This document shows positions 4,153 through 58,733 of a DNA stretch of 64,000 nucleotides, piece after piece. Source of the DNA: Fodinibius salsisoli (GTDB taxonomy: Bacteria > Bacteroidota > Rhodothermia > Balneolales > Balneolaceae); the NCBI RefSeq assembly GCF_026229185.1, contig NZ_JAGGJA010000002.1, positions 124,001 through 188,000 on the forward strand, in the 5' to 3' direction. The stretch's first letter is position 1. Each line of letters opens with the position of its first letter. Under the pieces are notes generated by a model. The model saw only the letters and a list, made by a program, of their open reading frames with translations. It was not told the origin of the DNA and made no database searches. The position numbers and the translations under genes are program-made.

Positions 4153-6219
4153 TCAGTACCAGGTTGTGGAAATCACTTGGTCTCCTACTTCCATGCGGTC
4201 GACTACACCCATCCCTTCAATGACTTTTCCAAAGCGGGTATAATTGCCATTCAAATGTGGACTCCACTGATTCATCATAAAATACTGGCTGCCTTCAGTA
4301 TCTGTACCTGCGCTGGCAATGCCCGCAGCTCCGCGTTCAAACTCTAACTCCGACGATTCAGTAGGGAGTATAAAATCTGGTCCGCCAAAACCATCCTGGC
4401 GTTCAATATCACCGCCTTGAATCACAAAGTTGGGCACCACACGGTGAAAAGGAACGCCGTCGTATGCTCCGGCCCGGCTTAGACTGTCGATAGCAGAAAC
4501 CGTTGCGGGTGCTCTAAGCGGATCCATGCGGATGGTAATTGCTCCCCTTTCGGTGTAGAGCGTCCACCGAGGTTTAGTACCCAACTGCCACAGTCGCTGC
4601 CAATCGGGTGTGCGGAATTTATTCCCCGAACTTTTCGGGATATCGACCTCCCATCCTGCATCAGCGAGCGACTGGTTTAATGGTGCATAACCCAATGCAG
4701 CCAATGAATCTATAACGGGCCGGGCCTGCTCTTCAAAGCGTTCTTTGTACAGCTGCCCAAACTGCTGATATACTTCAATATCATCCGGTAATAAAAACCC
4801 GTCTAAGGTACCGTTTATTTGCTTAAAGTCATCCTGCTGAAATAGCGCTTCCTGCTCCAACAATGGCTTGGCCATATAAGCTACGCCCCGATCATGCAGC
4901 TGCAATGCATCAAATGTGAGCGCTCTTATCTTTCTAATACGGTCCGGCATCTGCTCCTTGGCAGGTAACTCCTGCCAAAATTGTTGGAGACTCTCCACAA
5001 CCTGCATAGTGGCAAGGTGATCCTCCTGATTGATCACTTCCCGGAGGTGCTTCAAATACTCTTCCGGCGATTGGCTTGCCTGGAACACCCCAAGTTGATA
5101 CGATCTTAAATAGGGATTCTCCTCCACGTACTGCTCCATGCGCTGCTTGTATTGACCCACAAGGGTTGAATCAACGGCACTGGCAACTTTCAGTGCCTGA
5201 AACCAGATGTGGCCGGAAATGGATGTATTCTCTAACATCGTTTCCGTAACATATCGGTATAAATCGCCGCCTTGGGTAAATTTTCCAGCGAGGCTCTGCA
5301 ATGCGGTTAGTTGCACTTGGGGATTCTCATGCATCAGCAAAATTTTGGCGGCCAGCGACCTTCGCTCCGTCATTTCAATTGGACGTAATGATTTGGCCAG
5401 TTCCACAGAAAGCTGAACTTTGCTGTCGAGCTCTTGCTCACTGTTATAAAAATTCGTAATCCGGTAAGTGGTACGATCAGGCAAAATATGATTCACATAT
5501 TGATCGAGGGTCCGGTCAATTCCTAACCCTTGTGTTCGCCAGCGGCTCAGCAGCGTATCCCGGGCTGTCGATGATAGCGGTGTTTGAGGATTTCGATACC
5601 AGCCATAGAGATAAGCCTGACGTACAGAATCTGCATCAACCGTAAAAGCCTGTTGTAAGAGCCGTATTTGTTCCTCTTCCCCGATTTCATAGCGCATCAA
5701 CAGCCTGCTGATGGCAAGCGCAAAATGATATTCACGGTTATGGATTGAATCCACCTGTGAAAGCAAAAATTGCAGGCTCTGTTGGTCGCCCTGCCTGCCA
5801 AGTACCCGCGCAATGCCTGGCCGCAATGCTTGCTGTTGCCCCCATAACTGTTCCAACTGGCGCAGCTGTTGTACATTCATGGAGTGCTTGCTCAATGCAA
5901 ACCAGCTAACTTCCGTATTTTGTTGTTTGGCCAGACCTATAAATAATTCTGTTGAATCTATGGGCGTGGATGCCAATGCTCGCCACGCTTGTTGGCGGAC
6001 GGTATCACTTGCATGGGTAAGAAAAGGGGTAATTTCCCGGGCATCGCGCTGAAAAACAGCATTATACAACTCTGGATAGGCTGCTGTTATTGCTTCATCC
6101 GTTATGGGAGATTCTGCCTGGTAGATTCCTCTGCTATCAGCAGCCCATTTAAATAAGAGTACGACAATGACTACGAGTGCTGCGAACAGAAACCATACGC
6201 GGAGCCGAATATATTCCAT
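4153..6219 (-). CDS. Membrane-anchored cyclophilin-type peptidylprolyl isomerase with long helical-repeat N-terminal region
   Basis: 688 residues. A hydrophobic segment at about 6-26 serves as membrane anchor or uncleaved signal. Residues 40-540 are alpha-helical with HEAT-like character (for example HASDTVRQQAWRALAST). A cyclophilin domain occupies about 552-688. It carries the family motif FHRVVPNFVIQGGD starting at 591, with R593, F598 and Q601 at the expected catalytic positions, and GSQYFMM around 643-649. The loop Trp and His of human cyclophilin A look replaced (HLNGNYTRFG). Prolyl cis-trans isomerisation of proteins in the cell envelope is the likely job, and the repeat region may hold client proteins. 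Size is far above the 160-200 residues of single-domain cyclophilins. Confidence 0.88.
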   Translation of the reverse strand: MEYIRLRVWFLFAALVVIVVLLFKWAADSRGIYQAESPITDEAITAAYPELYNAVFQRDAREITPFLTHASDTVRQQAWRALASTPIDSTELFIGLAKQQNTEVSWFALSKHSMNVQQLRQLEQLWGQQQALRPGIARVLGRQGDQQSLQFLLSQVDSIHNREYHFALAISRLLMRYEIGEEEQIRLLQQAFTVDADSVRQAYLYGWYRNPQTPLSSTARDTLLSRWRTQGLGIDRTLDQYVNHILPDRTTYRITNFYNSEQELDSKVQLSVELAKSLRPIEMTERRSLAAKILLMHENPQVQLTALQSLAGKFTQGGDLYRYVTETMLENTSISGHIWFQALKVASAVDSTLVGQYKQRMEQYVEENPYLRSYQLGVFQASQSPEEYLKHLREVINQEDHLATMQVVESLQQFWQELPAKEQMPDRIRKIRALTFDALQLHDRGVAYMAKPLLEQEALFQQDDFKQINGTLDGFLLPDDIEVYQQFGQLYKERFEEQARPVIDSLAALGYAPLNQSLADAGWEVDIPKSSGNKFRTPDWQRLWQLGTKPRWTLYTERGAITIRMDPLRAPATVSAIDSLSRAGAYDGVPFHRVVPNFVIQGGDIERQDGFGGPDFILPTESSELEFERGAAGIASAGTDTEGSQYFMMNQWSPHLNGNYTRFGKVIEGMGVVDRMEVGDQVISTTWY

Positions 6220-10123: not shown

Positions 10124-10501
10124 TTAAATATAGGCCGTGCACCCGATTTCAACCTTGCAATTTTTGGGAAGCGTCTTGACGGCTACGGTCTCACGTGCCG
10201 GGGGCTCCGCATCAAAGTATGATCCGTAAATCTCATTAACCGTCGCAAAGTTATCCATGTCATCCAGATAAATTCCGCATTTGATAACTTTTTCGAACCC
10301 TGAACCAGCCTCCTCTAAAACGGCTTGCAGGTTTTTCATTACCTGTTTAGCCTGAGATGCTACATCTTCCCCAACAAATTCATTCGTCTCGGGATCCAGC
10401 CCAATTTGTCCGGAACAGTAGACGATATCACTATGAACAACCGCCTGGCTATAGGGACCAATGGCATCTGGTGCTTCAGAGGTATGGATAATCTTTTTCA
10501 T
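10124..10501 (-). CDS. ridA: RidA family reactive intermediate deaminase
   Basis: 125 residues, the normal length. The motifs are typical of the family: IGPYSQAV near the N-terminus, CSGQIGLDP, and PARETVAVKTLPK near 100-112, which carries the conserved Arg that binds the substrate carboxylate. RidA hydrolyses 2-aminoacrylate and related enamines made by PLP enzymes. Its ATG overlaps the stop of the upstream alpha/beta hydrolase (ATGA at 10501-10498), so translation is probably coupled. Confidence 0.95.
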   Translation of the reverse strand: MKKIIHTSEAPDAIGPYSQAVVHSDIVYCSGQIGLDPETNEFVGEDVASQAKQVMKNLQAVLEEAGSGFEKVIKCGIYLDDMDNFATVNEIYGSYFDAEPPARETVAVKTLPKNCKVEIGCTAYI

Positions 10502-20484: not shown

Positions 20485-21285
20485 ATGGCAAATTCAGTAA
20501 CAAAAAACCTTGCTCGACCTCTCTACGAAGGCACCTTCAGCGTGGGCCTGGATAAAAAATTTAACCGCATTGACCGAGAGGATCCTCCTGCCAAAGGGGC
20601 CCTCAAGATTTCTTTGAATCCTTTTCTCATTGAATCTGGAGATAAATACATTCTCTTTGATGTGGGAATCGGAGACTTTGGGGAAGATACCAGCACGGAA
20701 ACCATCAAAGAAAATTTATCCGCGCATGGGCTAACCGAATATGACATTACGGATATCTTTCTCAGCCATCTGCATTACGACCACCTGGGCGGGCTCGCGG
20801 GGCGTGGCTCCGGCTATTGGGAGCTGACCTTCCCGGACGCCAAACTCTGGGTTTCGGGACAAGGCTGGGCCGATGTTATGGCGAAAGAGGAGTTCTATGA
20901 TGAGGAAAAAACCGCTTTCGCCCACTTCCTGGATGCCAAAGCAGACCTGCATTTCCTGGATGAAGAGGATCAGCCCTACCCCGAAGTGTCGGTAAAAACC
21001 ATCGGGGGACACACCAAGTATTCTCAGCTCTTGGCTTTTGATGACGGCAAGCAAAAGTACCTGATGGCGGGCGATGTGCTGGCCAATCGCGGAGAAGTAA
21101 ACAGAACCTTTGAAGCCAAGTACGATGTAGATCCCAAGCGAAGCATGAAGATGCGTAACCAAATTACCCGCAAAGCATACGAAGAAGACTTTGCCATTAT
21201 GGGTTATCACGATTCCCATCACTCCATCTTTAAGCTCACCGATTACGATGAGCAACAAGGCTATAAAATTGAACCGGTCGCATGA
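20485..21285 (+). CDS. MBL-fold metallohydrolase
   Basis: 266 residues, cytoplasmic. The metallo-beta-lactamase signature is SHLHYDHLGG with H95, H97, D99 and H100. Further ligands are H176 (TIGGHTKYS), D197 (AGDVLA) and a late His-rich segment (YHDSHHS near 241-246). A dinuclear metal site is expected. Substrate is unknown; lactonase and phosphodiesterase-like relatives share this layout. Its stop overlaps the ATG of the purine nucleoside phosphorylase gene by 4 bp, so the two are coupled. Confidence 0.88.
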   Translation: MANSVTKNLARPLYEGTFSVGLDKKFNRIDREDPPAKGALKISLNPFLIESGDKYILFDVGIGDFGEDTSTETIKENLSAHGLTEYDITDIFLSHLHYDHLGGLAGRGSGYWELTFPDAKLWVSGQGWADVMAKEEFYDEEKTAFAHFLDAKADLHFLDEEDQPYPEVSVKTIGGHTKYSQLLAFDDGKQKYLMAGDVLANRGEVNRTFEAKYDVDPKRSMKMRNQITRKAYEEDFAIMGYHDSHHSIFKLTDYDEQQGYKIEPVA

Positions 21286-22076
21286 GTCAGTTTCCAGCCT
21301 TTATTAATGCTATCGTTAAGGATCTAACGAACCGCCAAACCCTTGAAAACCTGGAGGCAGCCATTATTCTGGGCTCTGGGCTCAGCAGTTTTGCTGAACA
21401 AATTGAGCAGCCCGAGATCATTCCCTACGCTGAAATACCCCAAATGCCTCAGACCTCTGTTGCCGGACATGAGGGCAACCTGATTTTTGGAACAATCAAT
21501 GGTCAAGAGGTTATAGCCTTTTCCGGGCGCTTCCATCACTACGAAGGATTCGACTTTGAGGAAACGGCCACCCCGGTGTACCTGGCAAAGGCACTGGGTG
21601 CTCAGAAACTCATCATTTCTAATGCGGCCGGAGCCATCAACACTTCGTTTTCGGTGGGCGATCTTATGGTCATCGAAGATGTGATTCGGGGCAACTCATT
21701 AATCACCCCTACCGGCAAAAAACGGCACCGGTATCGGCATCACCAGTGGGTGCCCGAGGTGCGAGACCTGGCTTCTCAAATGGGCATTACCACACAGCAA
21801 GGCACCTACTTTTTTGCGAAAGGCCCCAATTATGAGACAAAAGCCGAGATTCGTGCTTTTCGGCGTATGGGTGGAGACGCCGTGGGTATGTCTACGGCCC
21901 CTGAACTTTTCGAGGCGGCCCGTTTAGAGCTTAAGACCACGGCCATATCCCTGATCAGTAACATGGCGGCCGGCGTAACTAAAGGGAAACTCAATCATGA
22001 GGAAGTAAAAGCCGCCGCCGACTCCCGAAAGGACGATTTTGCCCGGCTCGTGAAAGCACTTATTGCTAACTTTTAG
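21282..22076 (+). CDS. punA: Purine-nucleoside phosphorylase (trimeric type)
   Basis: 264 residues with the low-molecular-mass PNP motifs: ILGSGLSSFA (phosphate loop), GHEGNLIFG, FSGRFHHYEG, SNAAGAIN, GPNYETKAEIR and GMSTAPELFEA. It splits purine (deoxy)nucleosides with phosphate in purine salvage. It overlaps the preceding MBL hydrolase by ATGA. The gene symbol follows usage for this type; deoD would be the unrelated hexameric form. Confidence 0.93.
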   Translation: MSQFPAFINAIVKDLTNRQTLENLEAAIILGSGLSSFAEQIEQPEIIPYAEIPQMPQTSVAGHEGNLIFGTINGQEVIAFSGRFHHYEGFDFEETATPVYLAKALGAQKLIISNAAGAINTSFSVGDLMVIEDVIRGNSLITPTGKKRHRYRHHQWVPEVRDLASQMGITTQQGTYFFAKGPNYETKAEIRAFRRMGGDAVGMSTAPELFEAARLELKTTAISLISNMAAGVTKGKLNHEEVKAAADSRKDDFARLVKALIANF

Positions 22077-22166
22077 CGACAAATGCCCCCTGTCATCAAT
22101 TCCCTACTCTTTTATTCCACCACTTTATCCGGTCTTTTTATATCTGCCCTAAATACTGCTTCTGAA

Positions 22167-22269
22167 AGCAATGCGCATTGCTCTATGAACTTATAGGCAT
22201 AAGTTCGCAGACTTATGCGCATAAGTTGTTCCTTTTATAGGCATAAAAATAAATCGAATGCCTATAAAA
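22167..22269. repeat. Cluster of four related palindromes
   Basis: AGCAATGCGCATTGCT (22167-22182) is a perfect 16-bp palindrome. GAACTTAT-AGGC-ATAAGTTC (22187-22206) is an 8-bp stem with a 4-nt centre. ACTTATGCGCATAAGT (22211-22226) is perfect. TTTTATAGGCAT (22233-22244) pairs with ATGCCTATAAAA (22258-22269). Stems differ between units, yet each keeps self-complementarity. Confidence 0.75.
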
Positions 22270-22424
22270 TATTTCACTGGCAGGCATCGGCGTTTTCAGC
22301 CTCTCTGGGCCCTTTTAGAGTTAAGCGTGTGTAACAAGAAAGATGACCGTCCAATAGCTTTGGATAACGGTGGTTAATCTTGTAGCAACCCCCTGATAGC
22401 ATCCTGGGCTTCAGATTGAGCGTA

Positions 22425-22442
22425 ATCCCGATAATTCGGGAT
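22425..22442. repeat. ATCCCGA/TCGGGAT hairpin
   Basis: A 7-bp perfect stem around TAAT. A related TCCCGA-ATTC-TCGGGA hairpin lies inside the repeat near 56520. Confidence 0.5.
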
Positions 22443-22485
22443 AAATATATGCCATCCCGATGGTTGCCTCTGCTGTAATAAACGT

Positions 22486-22508
22486 AGAGACGCATCGCAT
22501 GCGTCTCT
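22486..22508. repeat. AGAGACGCAT hairpin
   Basis: AGAGACGCAT (22486-22495), loop CGC, ATGCGTCTCT (22499-22508): a perfect 10-bp stem. It resembles the GTAGAGACGC...GCGTCTCTAC repeat that is common in cyanobacterial and Bacteroidota intergenic DNA. Confidence 0.6.
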
Positions 22509-22554
22509 GTAGTGGAATAACAGTCCTACAAGGGCCGTATTTCAAAGCCTCCTA

Positions 22555-24036
22555 CTAAATATCCAGCGCTTTTTGGCTGCCGTATGTCTTTAGATAGTTG
22601 TCCAGTTTCAGCTTCCGGCAGGCGCTTTGGCTGGTCATATAGCGTGTTTTTCCAAAGATAGGACGCTCCTGCCAGGCACGGTCGAACCGACCGAAACACC
22701 AAAAGATGCCCGAATAGCTGTTGGGATCACGGCCATCAATAGCATACTTATTGTTTAATTCGATAAGGTAAGCCAAGGCAATTTCCGGGTCGGGGGTCCA
22801 CTGCATCACCTTCTTGCCCCACAACATTCGCAGATAGTTATGCATAATGCCCTCTTCCCTGAGCTGGGTCTGTGCGGCATTCCAGAGCTCATCGTGCGTT
22901 TGAGAGTGCGCGAGCTCCTCCAACTCATAAATATACTCCCGTTCATCATGTTTATGCGCTTCCAGGGTCTCCAGGGCCCAGTCGGGCAATGATTCATACT
23001 GATCGTAGGCCGGCTCATGATGCGCAAAGTGAAAGCCTACCTCCCGCCACGTAATCACTTCATCCAGGAAGCTATCTACATTGGGATCTCCATTGAAAAA
23101 GCCCCCGGTGGATCCGCCGTTAAAGGTAATGTTATCCAGATCCCAATTCTTCGGCTGATGCTCAAGCACGGCCTTTACGATCTCGTACTCCGATATCTTT
23201 CCAAAGTGCAGCCAGGGACTCATGCCGCTGGTGGCGTCTGCATCCGGGTCGTTGCGCTTGTCATCGTAGTGCTTCAGGTTATACTGAATGAAACTACCCA
23301 GCTGACCCAAAGCGGCCTGACGGGTTCCTTTAATATCAATGGGGCTCACCTCATGATCGATATCCAGCGTGGCAATAAACTCCTCCGGATGAGCAATGCG
23401 TTCCAGGCTTTTTGCTCTTATTTGCTGCTGTTCTTTGGTCCATTTAATAGCAGACTGGTTTTCTAAGTCCTCCAAAGGATGCTGCTTTGGAGGGGAAGTG
23501 AAACATTCCACAAAATGCTTCTGCATTATCTTACGAAAGAAATAGGCATTGTAGGGCGCCTTCTCCGTTAGGCCAAGCGGAATGAGTCCATTAGAATCAA
23601 CGGTAATAAAAGCGATATTCAGCTCTTCAGCCAAATTGTTGTTACGATCCCGGATAAAATACACTGGGTATTCATCGGTAATCAGGCAGCAGGCGTTATC
23701 GAAGATGTCATTCAATATAGCCCGACTTTGGCCGGCTTCATCTTCTACAACGGGCAGCAAGTTAAACCCTTTTTGCTCGGCCCGTTCTACATGCTCAGCC
23801 ATCCCTTCCAGGTAGAATGTATGAATGCGATCCGAAACCCAGTGATAGTCGCAGCTTAATTCCTCATAAATGAGCAGCGGCTTATCCAGTTTATTCGCCC
23901 AGGCTACCGCATATTCAAGGGCATAATTATACTGTAGTCGATGGCTCGTTTGCGTCCAGTACACCACATAGTCTCCGTCGGGTGAAGGATCATATTCGTT
24001 CCGCTTAAATACGCGATGGCTGTTGATGTTCTGCAT
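22555..24036 (-). CDS. Class II deoxyribodipyrimidine photolyase
   Basis: 493 residues from the ATG at 24036. An in-frame ATG at 24129 would add 31 residues unlike the family start. The N-terminal Rossmann part reads VVYWTQTSHRLQYNYALEYAV, typical for class II. The FAD domain has SPWLHFGKIS, FLDEVITWREVGFHF, and the class II hallmark DGRDPNSYSGIFWCFGRFDRAWQERPIFGKTRYM near the C-terminus. It repairs UV-induced cyclobutane pyrimidine dimers using blue light. It is convergent with punA and divergent from a GH43 gene. Confidence 0.92.
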   Translation of the reverse strand: MQNINSHRVFKRNEYDPSPDGDYVVYWTQTSHRLQYNYALEYAVAWANKLDKPLLIYEELSCDYHWVSDRIHTFYLEGMAEHVERAEQKGFNLLPVVEDEAGQSRAILNDIFDNACCLITDEYPVYFIRDRNNNLAEELNIAFITVDSNGLIPLGLTEKAPYNAYFFRKIMQKHFVECFTSPPKQHPLEDLENQSAIKWTKEQQQIRAKSLERIAHPEEFIATLDIDHEVSPIDIKGTRQAALGQLGSFIQYNLKHYDDKRNDPDADATSGMSPWLHFGKISEYEIVKAVLEHQPKNWDLDNITFNGGSTGGFFNGDPNVDSFLDEVITWREVGFHFAHHEPAYDQYESLPDWALETLEAHKHDEREYIYELEELAHSQTHDELWNAAQTQLREEGIMHNYLRMLWGKKVMQWTPDPEIALAYLIELNNKYAIDGRDPNSYSGIFWCFGRFDRAWQERPIFGKTRYMTSQSACRKLKLDNYLKTYGSQKALDI

Positions 24037-24186
24037 GTAGCATGCGTTTTGAGTTTGTAATTGGAAGTGGTAACACCATTCCCCCTGACGACATTCCTTA
24101 ACTTCTACGTCACTGAAAATGATTTGCAAAATTTGCGAGAAATGGCTATCAATAAATGTTCTTAAAACACTTATAAATAATACTAT

Positions 24187-25191
24187 ATGCCTTTAACTTT
24201 TAAGCAATGGTTTTTCCTTATTTTCCTATGCATGGTGTCTTCGATTGGCATGGCACAATCAGAGAAAAATGCTATTCGCGTTCATGATCCGGTTATGGTT
24301 CAACAGGATGACAGCTATTACCTCTTTGCCACCGGTAGAGGAATTGCTGTTTGGTCTTCGCCCGATATGAAGGATTGGAAACGTGAAGAATCGGTTTTTG
24401 AAGAAGCTCCGCAGTGGACATTAGATATGAATCCAGATTTTAGAAACCATATCTGGGCCCCTGACATTGCCGAATATAACGGCACTTATTATCTCTATTA
24501 TTCCGTATCTCAGTTTGGACGCAACAAATCGGCCATTGGTGTAGTAACGAATGAAACGATGAATCCCAACGACCCCAATTATGAGTGGGTTGATCACGGA
24601 CCCGTCGTGCAGTCGGTTCCGGGGCGCGACCTTTGGAATGCCATCGATCCAAACTTGTCCTTTGATGATGAGGGTACGCCCTGGCTTTCTTTTGGATCGT
24701 ACTGGCGTGGAATCAAGATTGTACAACTTAAGAAGAATCTGACAGAAATTACTACTTCTCCGCAGTCCTGGCGTACGATCGCCTCCCGGCACCGTTATTG
24801 GAAACTGGATGTACGCGATGCCGGCAATAAGTCCAGTGGGGATATCGAAGCTCCGTTTATCTTTAAAAAGAACGGCTTCTATTATCTGTTTGCCTCTTGG
24901 GATCGCTGCTGCGCCGGCAAGGAAAGTACGTATAAAGTAGTGGTTGGTCGATCCGAAAACATCACTGGTCCCTACCTGGATAAAACCGATAAGAAGATGA
25001 TTCATGGGGGCGGTACCCTGGTAACCAAAGGGAACAAAAAATGGGCCGCAGTGGGTCATCAGGCCGCTTATACGTTTGATGATACTGATTATCTAATCTT
25101 CCACGGCTATGACAATGAAGATGACGGAGATGCCAAACTTATCATCAGAGAAATTGAGTGGACCGATGGATGGCCTGCGGTGAAGCTTTAA
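24187..25191 (+). CDS. Secreted GH43 family glycosidase (arabinan-degrading type), copy 1
   Basis: 334 residues with a signal peptide ending near IGMAQ (about residue 23). It has the five-bladed propeller of GH43, with the three acidic residues in context: Asp in VHDPVM, Asp in NAIDPNLS and Glu in DIEAPFIF. The APDIAEYNGTYYLYYSVSQFGRNKSAIG stretch points to the endo-1,5-alpha-L-arabinanase or arabinofuranosidase branch. The likely role is cutting arabinose-containing plant or algal glycans in the periplasm or outside. A close paralog follows after 39 bp. Confidence 0.9.
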   Translation: MPLTFKQWFFLIFLCMVSSIGMAQSEKNAIRVHDPVMVQQDDSYYLFATGRGIAVWSSPDMKDWKREESVFEEAPQWTLDMNPDFRNHIWAPDIAEYNGTYYLYYSVSQFGRNKSAIGVVTNETMNPNDPNYEWVDHGPVVQSVPGRDLWNAIDPNLSFDDEGTPWLSFGSYWRGIKIVQLKKNLTEITTSPQSWRTIASRHRYWKLDVRDAGNKSSGDIEAPFIFKKNGFYYLFASWDRCCAGKESTYKVVVGRSENITGPYLDKTDKKMIHGGGTLVTKGNKKWAAVGHQAAYTFDDTDYLIFHGYDNEDDGDAKLIIREIEWTDGWPAVKL

Positions 25192-25230
25192 GAACAATAA
25201 ATGACTTTTAACTAATAACTAATTTTCGAT

Positions 25231-26307
25231 ATGAATTCTTTCCTTAAAACAATAGCTATTTTCCTCTTGTTAGGAATTTGCACATCTCCATTAAAAGCAC
25301 AACTCGACTATGAACAGATTCCCATTCATGATCCGGTTATGATTGAGCACGAAGGCACCTACTACGCTTTTAGCACCGGTAAAGGGATTGCCGTATGGTC
25401 TTCTCCTGACATGAAAGAATGGACCGCTGAAGCGCCGGTTTTTGAGGAAGCCCCCGACTGGTCTTTTGAGCTTGTCCCCGATTTTGATAATGTGGAATGG
25501 GCCCCAGACATCGCTGAGCACGATGGCACATTTTATCTTTATTATTCAGTATCCCAATTTGGCCGCAACAATTCGGCCATTGGCGTAGCTACGAATGAGA
25601 CGCTGAATCCCGAAGATCCAAATTATGAATGGATTGATCACGGACCTGTTGTGCAGTCGGTTCCCGGTCGCGATATGTGGAATGCTATCGATCCCAACCT
25701 CGCCTTTGATGACAGTGGTACCCCTTGGCTCTCCTTCGGTTCGTTCTGGATGGGTCTAAAGATTGTAAAATTACAGGATAACCTGACGGAGATTGTTGAA
25801 GATCCACAAGAACAAGAGTGGCATACCATTGCAGCCCGCCACCGTAACTGGAAAGTGGATGAACGCGATGCCGGTGATGCCGCCAATCCCGAGCTCGACT
25901 ACGAAGAACTCTATTCCAGTGACCTGCTCGAGGCAAATCAGAATATGGAAAACGGAGCGGTAGAAGCCCCCTTTATCTTCAAAAAGAATGGCTATAACTA
26001 TCTTTTTGTATCCATGGATCGGTGCTGCCGGGGACTTGAAAGCAGTTACAAAATTAAGGTGGGACGTTCAAAGAATATTACAGGTCCATATTTGGATAAA
26101 AGTGGCGATAAACTCGTTCACGGCGGCGGTACGCTCATTGCCAAAGAAAATGAAGACTGGGCTGCAGTCGGCCATCAGGCAGCGTACACCTTCGACGGTA
26201 CCGACTACCTGATCTTCCACGGCTATGATAAATCTGACGAAGGTAAGGCCAAGCTGATTATTCGGGAGATCCAATGGAACGACGGCTGGCCTGAGGTTTC
26301 TTTATAA
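25231..26307 (+). CDS. Secreted GH43 family glycosidase, copy 2
   Basis: 358 residues with a signal peptide ending near LKAQL (about residue 24). The catalytic contexts match copy 1: IHDPVM, NAIDPNLA and VEAPFIF. It differs by an insert of about 25 residues rich in Asp, Glu and Asn (NPELDYEELYSSDLLEANQN) just before the general-acid Glu, near the mouth of the active site. A change in chain-length or branch preference is therefore plausible. Tandem duplication with copy 1 is clear. Confidence 0.9.
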   Translation: MNSFLKTIAIFLLLGICTSPLKAQLDYEQIPIHDPVMIEHEGTYYAFSTGKGIAVWSSPDMKEWTAEAPVFEEAPDWSFELVPDFDNVEWAPDIAEHDGTFYLYYSVSQFGRNNSAIGVATNETLNPEDPNYEWIDHGPVVQSVPGRDMWNAIDPNLAFDDSGTPWLSFGSFWMGLKIVKLQDNLTEIVEDPQEQEWHTIAARHRNWKVDERDAGDAANPELDYEELYSSDLLEANQNMENGAVEAPFIFKKNGYNYLFVSMDRCCRGLESSYKIKVGRSKNITGPYLDKSGDKLVHGGGTLIAKENEDWAAVGHQAAYTFDGTDYLIFHGYDKSDEGKAKLIIREIQWNDGWPEVSL

Positions 26308-52950: not shown

Positions 52951-53113
52951 ATTAGTATATAGTAAAAGTTAAGTTATAAGCGTTTAACGCATCAGGCTGC
53001 AGAATATAATAATCTCTTCATTCGTTTTTTGAAAAAAATCCCAATCATTTTCTTACCTTAATGCGCATTCAACCTACTCAACATTCATCAATCAATAAGC
53101 TATCTGTATTGAG

Positions 53114-57509: not shown

Positions 57510-58370
57510 ATGAATTTTTTAGATCTCATTAATGACGTAGACGCCGATAAGTTAAACGGCGAATCCAAGGACAAATTCCTGAGTCGCAAACAAGCCCTGG
57601 GTAAACTTAGCAATTTTAGCAAAAAGTTAGCTGTAACGGCCCTGCCCCTGGGTGCTTTTGCTGCCTTTAGTAAACCGGCACAAGCTCAGTCAACCGATCA
57701 GCTGGTTGATACGCTCAATTTCGCGCTTACGCTTGAGTACCTGGAAGCCGAATATTACCAGAAGGGAATCGATTCCGGTATCGTGGACAGCTATGGAAAG
57801 GTTGGAGGCGTATCTGCTCAAGCTCATGGTGATACCTTCCGAGAGATTGCCGACCACGAGGCCGACCACGTTGCCTTCCTGACCGAAGTTATTGGTAACG
57901 TATTGGGCGGAGAACCGGCTCAAAAACCAACCTTCGACTTTACAGTTGACGGTGCTTTTGATCCGTTTAATAACAACGCTCAATTTTTAGCACTCGCTCA
58001 GGCCTTTGAGGATACCGGAGTGCGAGCCTATAAAGGACAGGCCGGAGCCGTTATGGGAAATGATTTAGTTCTGACCCGCGCGCTTCAAATCCACTCCGTA
58101 GAAGCACGCCATGCTTCCCGGGTTCGCGAATTACGAGGCTTAAAGGGTTGGATTACCGGTGACTCTACAGAACAGTCATTACCAGAAGCTGCTCAAGCAG
58201 TTTATGAAGGTGAAACCCCTGAAACCAACACCACACAAGTAGTTGATGTCAGCGCTACACTCAGTGGTGATGGCGATGTGGACAACACCGATATTGCCGC
58301 AGCTTGGGATGAATTCCTGACCAAGGATGAAGTGCTTGCCATTGCCAGCTTATTCATCGTTGAGGAATAA
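57510..58370 (+). CDS. Exported ferritin-like domain protein 2
   Basis: 286 residues. SRKQALGK at about 25-32 and a hydrophobic segment ending FSKPAQAQ look like a Tat-type signal with a single Arg. The ferritin-like domain carries LEYLEAEYYQKG, DHEADHVAFL, FEDTGVRAYKGQAG and SVEARHASRVREL, the same four acidic/His positions as protein 1. There is a C-terminal extension of about 60 residues. Tandem with protein 1; a hetero-oligomer is plausible. A terminator follows. Confidence 0.88.
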   Translation: MNFLDLINDVDADKLNGESKDKFLSRKQALGKLSNFSKKLAVTALPLGAFAAFSKPAQAQSTDQLVDTLNFALTLEYLEAEYYQKGIDSGIVDSYGKVGGVSAQAHGDTFREIADHEADHVAFLTEVIGNVLGGEPAQKPTFDFTVDGAFDPFNNNAQFLALAQAFEDTGVRAYKGQAGAVMGNDLVLTRALQIHSVEARHASRVRELRGLKGWITGDSTEQSLPEAAQAVYEGETPETNTTQVVDVSATLSGDGDVDNTDIAAAWDEFLTKDEVLAIASLFIVEE

Positions 58371-58428: not shown

Positions 58429-58526
58429 ATTTGAAATACATTTCCATTCCTGTGTACCGATAGAGCCCTCGTCATAGTTCGGCAAACGGTGAATTGCATC
58501 CTTTCACGCTATACGTCAGTGATTGT

Positions 58527-58614
58527 AACCCTGCTCGTCAGACCCTCTGACCCTACGTGTTACGACCTCTAACACGACGTGTTATACCCTTTAACCCTAC
58601 GTGTTATAACCCCT
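58527..58614. repeat. Four 22-bp tandem repeats bounded by inverted octamers
   Basis: Units start at 58527, 58549, 58571 and 58593; the last three carry ACGTGTTA at exact 22-bp spacing (58555, 58577, 58599). The consensus is roughly AACCCTACGTGTTATACCCT plus CT. CTCGTCAG (58534-58541) in the first unit is inverted as CTGACGAG (58613-58620) just after the last. Confidence 0.75.
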
Positions 58615-58733
58615 GACGAGTACAAACACCCTTCAAATATTTTTACTGTTTGGCTCCCTATTAAATGAAGGAATCCATTAATCGAGAAAGAAACTGAAAA
58701 CAATAAATGGCTTTATATGGATCCCTTCTCGTT

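Follow-up and report, generated by a model that had tools for sequence, protein, structure and literature searches.

A phased row of five dyad sites in the punA-phr spacer of Fodinibius salsisoli, putatively bound by a dimeric protein

Five dyad sites lie between punA and phr

The DNA analysed is a stretch of 64,000 nucleotides from F. salsisoli (the window). Within it, the phosphorylase gene punA and the photolyase-like gene phr converge on a 478-bp spacer, and a row of five short dyad sites, about two helix turns apart, sits in this spacer 91 bp from punA and 286 bp from phr (Table 1). The sites are separated by linkers of 6, 6, 6, and 5 bp. The sequence-only reading had described four palindromes at this place. 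Its two perfect 16-bp palindromes, with a common core and differing but compensating flanks, were found as sites 1 and 3, and its third, with ACTTAT/ATAAGT around AGGC, is site 2, in which the AGGC core is not self-complementary. The arms of its fourth, TTTTATAGGCAT (22233-22244) and ATGCCTATAAAA (22258-22269), are indeed complementary at 12 of 12 positions, but they belong to two separate sites, 4 and 5. The regular pitch of all five sites is an addition to that description.

Table 1. Coordinates of the arrays and of neighbouring features in the window.
Feature	Position	Strand	Description
punA, PNP_UDP_1 phosphorylase gene	21282..22076	+	Ends 91 bp before site 1
Site 1	22167..22182		AGCAATGCGCATTGCT, perfect 16-bp palindrome; flanks AGCA/TGCT around the ATGCGCAT core
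Site 2	22189..22204		ACTTATAGGCATAAGT, read as ACTTAT-AGGC-ATAAGT; half-sites ACTTATAG / ACTTATGC; centre 22 bp from site 1
Site 3	22211..22226		ACTTATGCGCATAAGT, perfect 16-bp palindrome; flanks ACTT/AAGT around the ATGCGCAT core; centre 22 bp from site 2
Site 4	22233..22248		TTTTATAGGCATAAAA; centred 22 bp after site 3; left arm of the fourth hairpin described earlier lies here
Site 5	22254..22269		TCGAATGCCTATAAAA, orientation inverted; centred 21 bp after site 4; right arm of the same hairpin lies here
Linkers CTATGA, TCGCAG, TGTTCC, ATAAA	within 22183..22253		Vary between copies, the sites being kept
Terminator-like hairpin AGAGACGCAT...ATGCGTCTCT	22486..22508	- (phr strand)	Apart from the array
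phr, photolyase-like gene	22555..24129	-	Convergent with punA; both Pfam photolyase matches below curated cut-offs
Second, unrelated 22-bp family	58526..58620		Dyad centres 58533, 58555, 58577, 58599 and a terminal half-site 58614-58620

To estimate chance expectation, the 478-bp spacer was shuffled by a first-order Markov model, a palindrome being counted at 6 or more of 8 half matches. Chains of at least four palindromes at a pitch of 20-23 bp occurred in 0 of 2000 shuffles and chains of at least three in 2 of 2000. The array is the only even-centred chain of three or more in the window, and an odd-centred chain of three lies elsewhere in the window, at 52984-53030. Chains of three are not rare, two even-centred ones being present in 393 kb of two relatives. 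The same scan of 489 kb of the own genome returned two even-centred chains (four palindromes in the window, three at the C6 array described below) and one odd-centred chain, and only the window array reached four. Because the scan missed the array at C3, more arrays may exist.

Two similar adjoining ORFs, the first with a Pfam GH43 match, follow phr in the window at 24187-26307 and are probably a tandem duplication.

Half-sites and pitch are kept between copies

A BLAST search of the own genome revealed two more arrays, at C6:81920-82007 (78%, E 4e-12) and C3:47197-47254 (78%, E 0.001). Both align with the window array in the same orientation and have four sites each, at pitches of 22, 22, and 21 bp. 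These three arrays constitute family 1. The second 22-bp family in the window has the half-sites TAACCCT, TAACACG, TGACCCT, and TGACGAG, and has one further copy at C22:417532-417603 (88%; about 1500-1590 of stretch L140), likewise at a pitch of 22. Tandem Repeats Finder lists family 2 at 58544-58611, which the half-site reading extends to the limits given in Table 1; run at score 40, the program did not list the window array of family 1. The two outer places at which TGACGAG occurs coincide between the family-2 copies, as does the 22-bp phase. The family-2 dyad pattern was found at five places, four of them inside the two arrays, against one for the control. The window array of this family lies past a ferritin-like ORF at 57510-58370, the name being assigned by reading.

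We compared one pair of copies in each family, family 1 having three copies in all. Between the window and C6 arrays, differences were found at 2 of 48 positions of the 12-bp cores, 4 of 16 of the outer flanks, and 9 of 12 of the linkers (core versus linker, p=7e-7, with the 6/5-bp linker omitted). Between the two family-2 copies, 3 of 56 half-site positions and 13 of 28 linker positions differed (p=1.7e-5). In two unrelated families, half-sites and pitch are kept and linkers are largely scrambled. The element is constrained, and dyad symmetry at the DNA level is part of the constraint. Since the copies differ enough to tell held bases (half-sites, pitch) from free ones (linkers) in both families, this contrast makes the function of 20-23-nt repeats directly testable.

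The half-sites of the three family-1 copies share a simple pattern. TTAT precedes the inner two bases in 19 of 26 half-sites, most of the seven exceptions lying in site 1 and at array ends, and the inner two bases are AG (8) or GC (18) in all 26. Within the 13 units, these words combine as 5 GC/GC, 8 AG/GC, and 0 AG/AG. Such free mixing of AG and GC within units fits recognition of half-sites; selection for base pairing would not be expected to give it. A lone TTATGCGCATAA lies at C11:119052 in the own genome.

The arrays are intergenic: none of the five, counting both families, falls within an ORF call of 80 aa or longer, and no stop-to-stop frame of 80 codons spans any of the four arrays other than that in L140. 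Each of the three family-1 arrays begins 91-121 bp past the 3' end of a same-strand gene. This position, together with the strong hairpins, is what a bidirectional intergenic transcription terminator would present. However, a scan for intrinsic terminators (a G+C-rich hairpin followed by a T run) with loops of 3-8, a range too narrow for the 13 bases that loop out between sites 4 and 5, gave no terminator-like match at any of the three family-1 arrays, and this identity was rejected. The C6 locus has a separate strong terminator (L044:6842-6867) that lies past the gene end and ahead of the array, the phr strand carries its own hairpin, and a strict 22-bp pitch would be superfluous for termination. 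We consider a terminator role very improbable.

The array looks lineage-specific

The genes punA and phr adjoin and converge in all 12 genus genomes examined, with spacers of 26-651 bp. On reading the spacers by eye, the array was absent from the punA-phr spacer of all 11 other genus genomes, and the best BLAST match of the array in these genomes had an E value of only 0.018. The exact two-site pattern was found in 1 of 92 family genomes. Of 394 phylum genomes, 2 matched a relaxed version, the additional one only through a lone pair within an open frame. From these sequence searches, the array looks lineage-specific. In another species (G017, L055) the spacer is 651 bp long and carries different inverted repeats (TTTAGTACACTT...AAGTGTACTAAA); for this reason, the spacer seems to tolerate insertions.

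We further scanned species genomes for pairs of TTATRSSYATAA at a pitch of 21-23. The scan, which had no matched control, yielded 51 stretches, of which 24 were titled Prevotella or Prevotellaceae and 7 lay within called ORFs; 8 viral contigs also matched. Because of the missing control and the seven stretches in ORFs, we do not claim one homologous family across the 51. With the arms read loosely, 19 of the 24 Prevotella or Prevotellaceae stretches have at least three units, and all steps are 21 bp except one. The metagenome-assembled genome G093, titled uncultured bacterium, gave ten match rows on six contigs. In the five contigs read, AGGC-like cores recur at a 22-bp pitch in dispersed arrays of three or four units each (L184, L194, L206, L208, and L212), and AAATATTT-like linkers are frequent, as they are in the C3 and C6 arrays. 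A reversed-pattern control gave 0 matches in ten genomes, all of which had been picked for having a match. The similar arrays in other groups may be homologous or convergent. A plasmid or phage origin of family 1 was rejected, as searches against plasmids and phages gave short matches only, at E 0.4 or worse; family 2 had no match among plasmids.

Pairing exceeds random mixing in the outer flanks but not in the cores

The sequence-only reading had proposed that paired changes preserve a structure at the DNA or RNA level. That the element is constrained and dyad-symmetric at the DNA level is borne out; the cores show no pairing beyond that of mixed half-sites, and the flanks and an imposed fold show some paired changes. 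Core complementarity within the 13 units of the three copies was 10 of 26, compared with 14.4-14.5 expected from random pairing of half-sites. In the own genome it was 22 of 40 between neighbouring units (21.5 expected) and 16 of 28 between every second unit (15.0 expected). These values lie below random within units and close to random between them. In 53 Prevotella units, picked by a pattern neutral to coupling of left and right, the two variable sides were independent (22 AT, 16 AC, 8 GC, and 7 GT; Fisher p=0.55). The units of the five G093 loci are mostly head-to-tail and not self-complementary, with core pairing within units at 2 of 34 against 16.5 expected.

The outer four bases of the units behave differently from the cores. 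They matched above random in the three copies (37 of 52 against 26.8, p=0.009), driven mostly by the window array (17 of 20, p=0.011; 20 of 32, p=0.20, in C3 and C6 together). When the window fold was imposed on the three copies, six pairs were changed on both sides, a number reached by 2 of 500 shuffles, and versions of this fold slid along the alignment gave 0-2. Two of the six double changes join the cores of units 1 and 3, two lie in the unit-2 flanks, and two at the outer edge. The covariation score of the imposed fold was reached by 1 of 500 shuffles. A dyad-only structure gave four double changes (12 of 500 shuffles). Core pairing between units 1 and 3 is at the level that mixing of units gives; the unit-2 flank changes count for covariation, and the core covariation amounts to no more than unit mixing. 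In Prevotella, neighbouring cores matched above random (147 of 184 against 132.4, p=0.002), which may reflect the sameness of units within an array.

These observations bear on the possibility that an RNA or cruciform structure is selected, the array being transcribed and folding into hairpins. RNA folding z scores of -5.2 (+ strand) and -6.2 (- strand) for the window array, -5.2 for C3, and -2.4 for C6 are in its favour, as are the double changes in the imposed and dyad-only structures, the matched outer flanks, and the Prevotella signal. Nevertheless, palindromes fold by construction, the imposed structure was taken from one of the compared copies, and the three copies do not share one minimum-energy fold. 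The core complementarity of the own genome and of G093 also argues against it, and so does the spacer, in which a scan for sigma-70-type promoters, with other promoter types outside its range, found no match. A search of 21900-22700 with Rfam covariance models gave four matches (E 0.28-3.3), all far under the gathering scores, and membership in an Rfam RNA family was rejected. We regard selection for an RNA or cruciform structure as unlikely, and as less probable than a strip of protein-binding sites. Three related copies cannot settle the pairing question. Palindromes with matching arms need not imply an RNA structure.

The matched flanks could also come from mutation. Template switching acts at quasi-palindromes, and it would account for the matched outer flanks if the array were a spreading REP/MITE-like repeat without a host function, copied by a transposase such as RAYT, with its palindromes perfected in this manner. 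The dispersed, lineage-specific copies are consistent with such a repeat, and Y1_Tnp matches are present in 6 of the 12 genus genomes, own included, with 8 matches in the own genome. However, neutral decay would strike sites and linkers equally, and the observed differences are unequal. Family 1 has three copies only, the Y1_Tnp matches extend beyond the own genome, and GTAG, CGTC, or their complements occur in none of the three family-1 arrays. An identity with REP/RAYT elements was rejected, and we think a spreading repeat quite unlikely.

A strip of protein-binding sites is the favoured reading

We consider it somewhat probable that the array is a row of phased putative sites for a dimeric DNA-binding protein. 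The pitch, the half-site words, the three copies, the kept half-sites beside free linkers, the absence from the relatives examined, and the intergenic position are observed features. The kept half-sites and pitch, the mixed inner words, and the position outside ORFs speak for this reading, as do other rows of similar period in the genome that are of protein-binding kinds. With inverted half-sites recurring every 22 bp, or two turns of the helix, the sites are presented on nearly one face of the DNA. A sequence-specific protein would most likely sit on each dyad as a dimer, and cooperative binding between adjacent dimers may build up a strip. We would expect this strip to serve a structural purpose, in nucleoid architecture, insulation, or titration, and not to control a promoter. 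The matching of outer flanks above random is not required by a plain half-site model.

The genome was also surveyed for related sites. TTATRSSYATAA occurred 20 times, array sites counted, against 24 for the reversed-pattern control, and TATAGGCATA occurred 26 times on both strands against 37, neither being in excess; ATGCGCAT occurred 56 times genome-wide against 22 for the reversed word. An operator reading was rejected on the TTATRSSYATAA and TATAGGCATA counts, which led to no operator that would implicate a regulator gene; ATGCGCAT is in excess of its control. The ORFs adjoining the family-1 arrays, read by eye and with Pfam for the window neighbours, included no rep or regulator gene, the genes next to C3 and C6 are not Rep by reading, and no candidate binding protein was found. 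Core sites of tyrosine recombinases have arms around a 6-7-bp linker. This identity was rejected; the match across linkers was 26 of 40 against 23.3 (p=0.23), and the sites are too close for cassettes.

A broader suggestion is offered tentatively, as a possibility that we do not favour. An undescribed class of proteins might lay phased dimers on 21-22-bp TTAT-RSSY-ATAA-like dyad arrays in intergenic regions of scattered, mainly Bacteroidota genomes. These arrays would act as local nucleoid anchors, each lineage having its own half-site code, and the TAACMCK-like family 2 would point to a second such protein.

Relation to known repeats

Subirana and Messeguer reportedly described the 20-23-nt noncoding tandem repeats of bacteria in J Bacteriol in 2020. 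Available sections of their papers on these repeats (PMC8161180, PMC6749651, and PMC8625621) suggest a DNA-polymerising protein, or small RNAs, as an explanation, and those of PMC8161180 report no obvious function and a search limited to at least four repeats. As far as that text describes the class, both it and the present arrays have a length of two helical turns, are noncoding and species-specific, consist of short words and their reverse, and occur as several equal-length families of different sequence in one genome. Here the pitch is 21-22, the position intergenic, the number of units 5, 4, and 4, the distribution species-specific, and the number of families two. Judged by the accessible portion of PMC8161180, the array is a variant of these known repeats. 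It differs in that the linkers of family 1 are too diverged for Tandem Repeats Finder to list it, as it does family 2, that the sampled part of the genome is not rich in such arrays, and that what is kept can be traced to the half-sites.

Other dispersed repeats are less similar. REP, BIME, and REPIN elements, as presented in the consulted part of PMC3733652, are short extragenic palindromes dispersed near gene ends, as is family 1. Most REPs are sorted there by GTAG or CGTC tags, whereas family 1 has neither tag, three copies only, and a strict 22-bp phasing. An intergenic repeat of Prevotella intermedia, compared by description only from the accessible text of PMC4755523, is likewise lineage-specific and from Bacteroidota, but its unit is 188 bp long and present in 177-184 copies, in contrast to the 22-bp pitch and three copies found here.

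The genome also holds repeats of similar period that belong to more familiar kinds. In 20 further 20-kb stretches of the genome (400 kb), Tandem Repeats Finder picked up four rows with periods of 20-23, two of them within long open frames and two outside; across 393 kb from two relatives it picked up five, with periods of 20-24. In plasmid iterons and tandem operators, binding sites for a protein recur roughly every two helical turns, and the own genome has one likely example of each, both in stretch L147 (G000:C8), where the gene names were assigned by reading. Like these, family 1 repeats at about two turns; unlike them, its sites are dyads and not plain direct repeats, and, in contrast to iterons, no replication initiator adjoins it, the window neighbours being a nucleoside phosphorylase gene and a photolyase-like gene. 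At 10164-10228, a Rep-like ORF is immediately followed by 23-bp direct repeats and then by mobilisation-like ORFs, an arrangement suggestive of iterons in an integrated mobilizable element. At 4746-4806, 20-bp repeats lie upstream, at about 15 bp, of an AbiE-like pair of winged-helix/nucleotidyltransferase-like ORFs; from this arrangement, the repeats are likely to be an autoregulatory operator. Both the AbiE-upstream and the Rep-adjacent repeats are of kinds that we take to bind proteins elsewhere.
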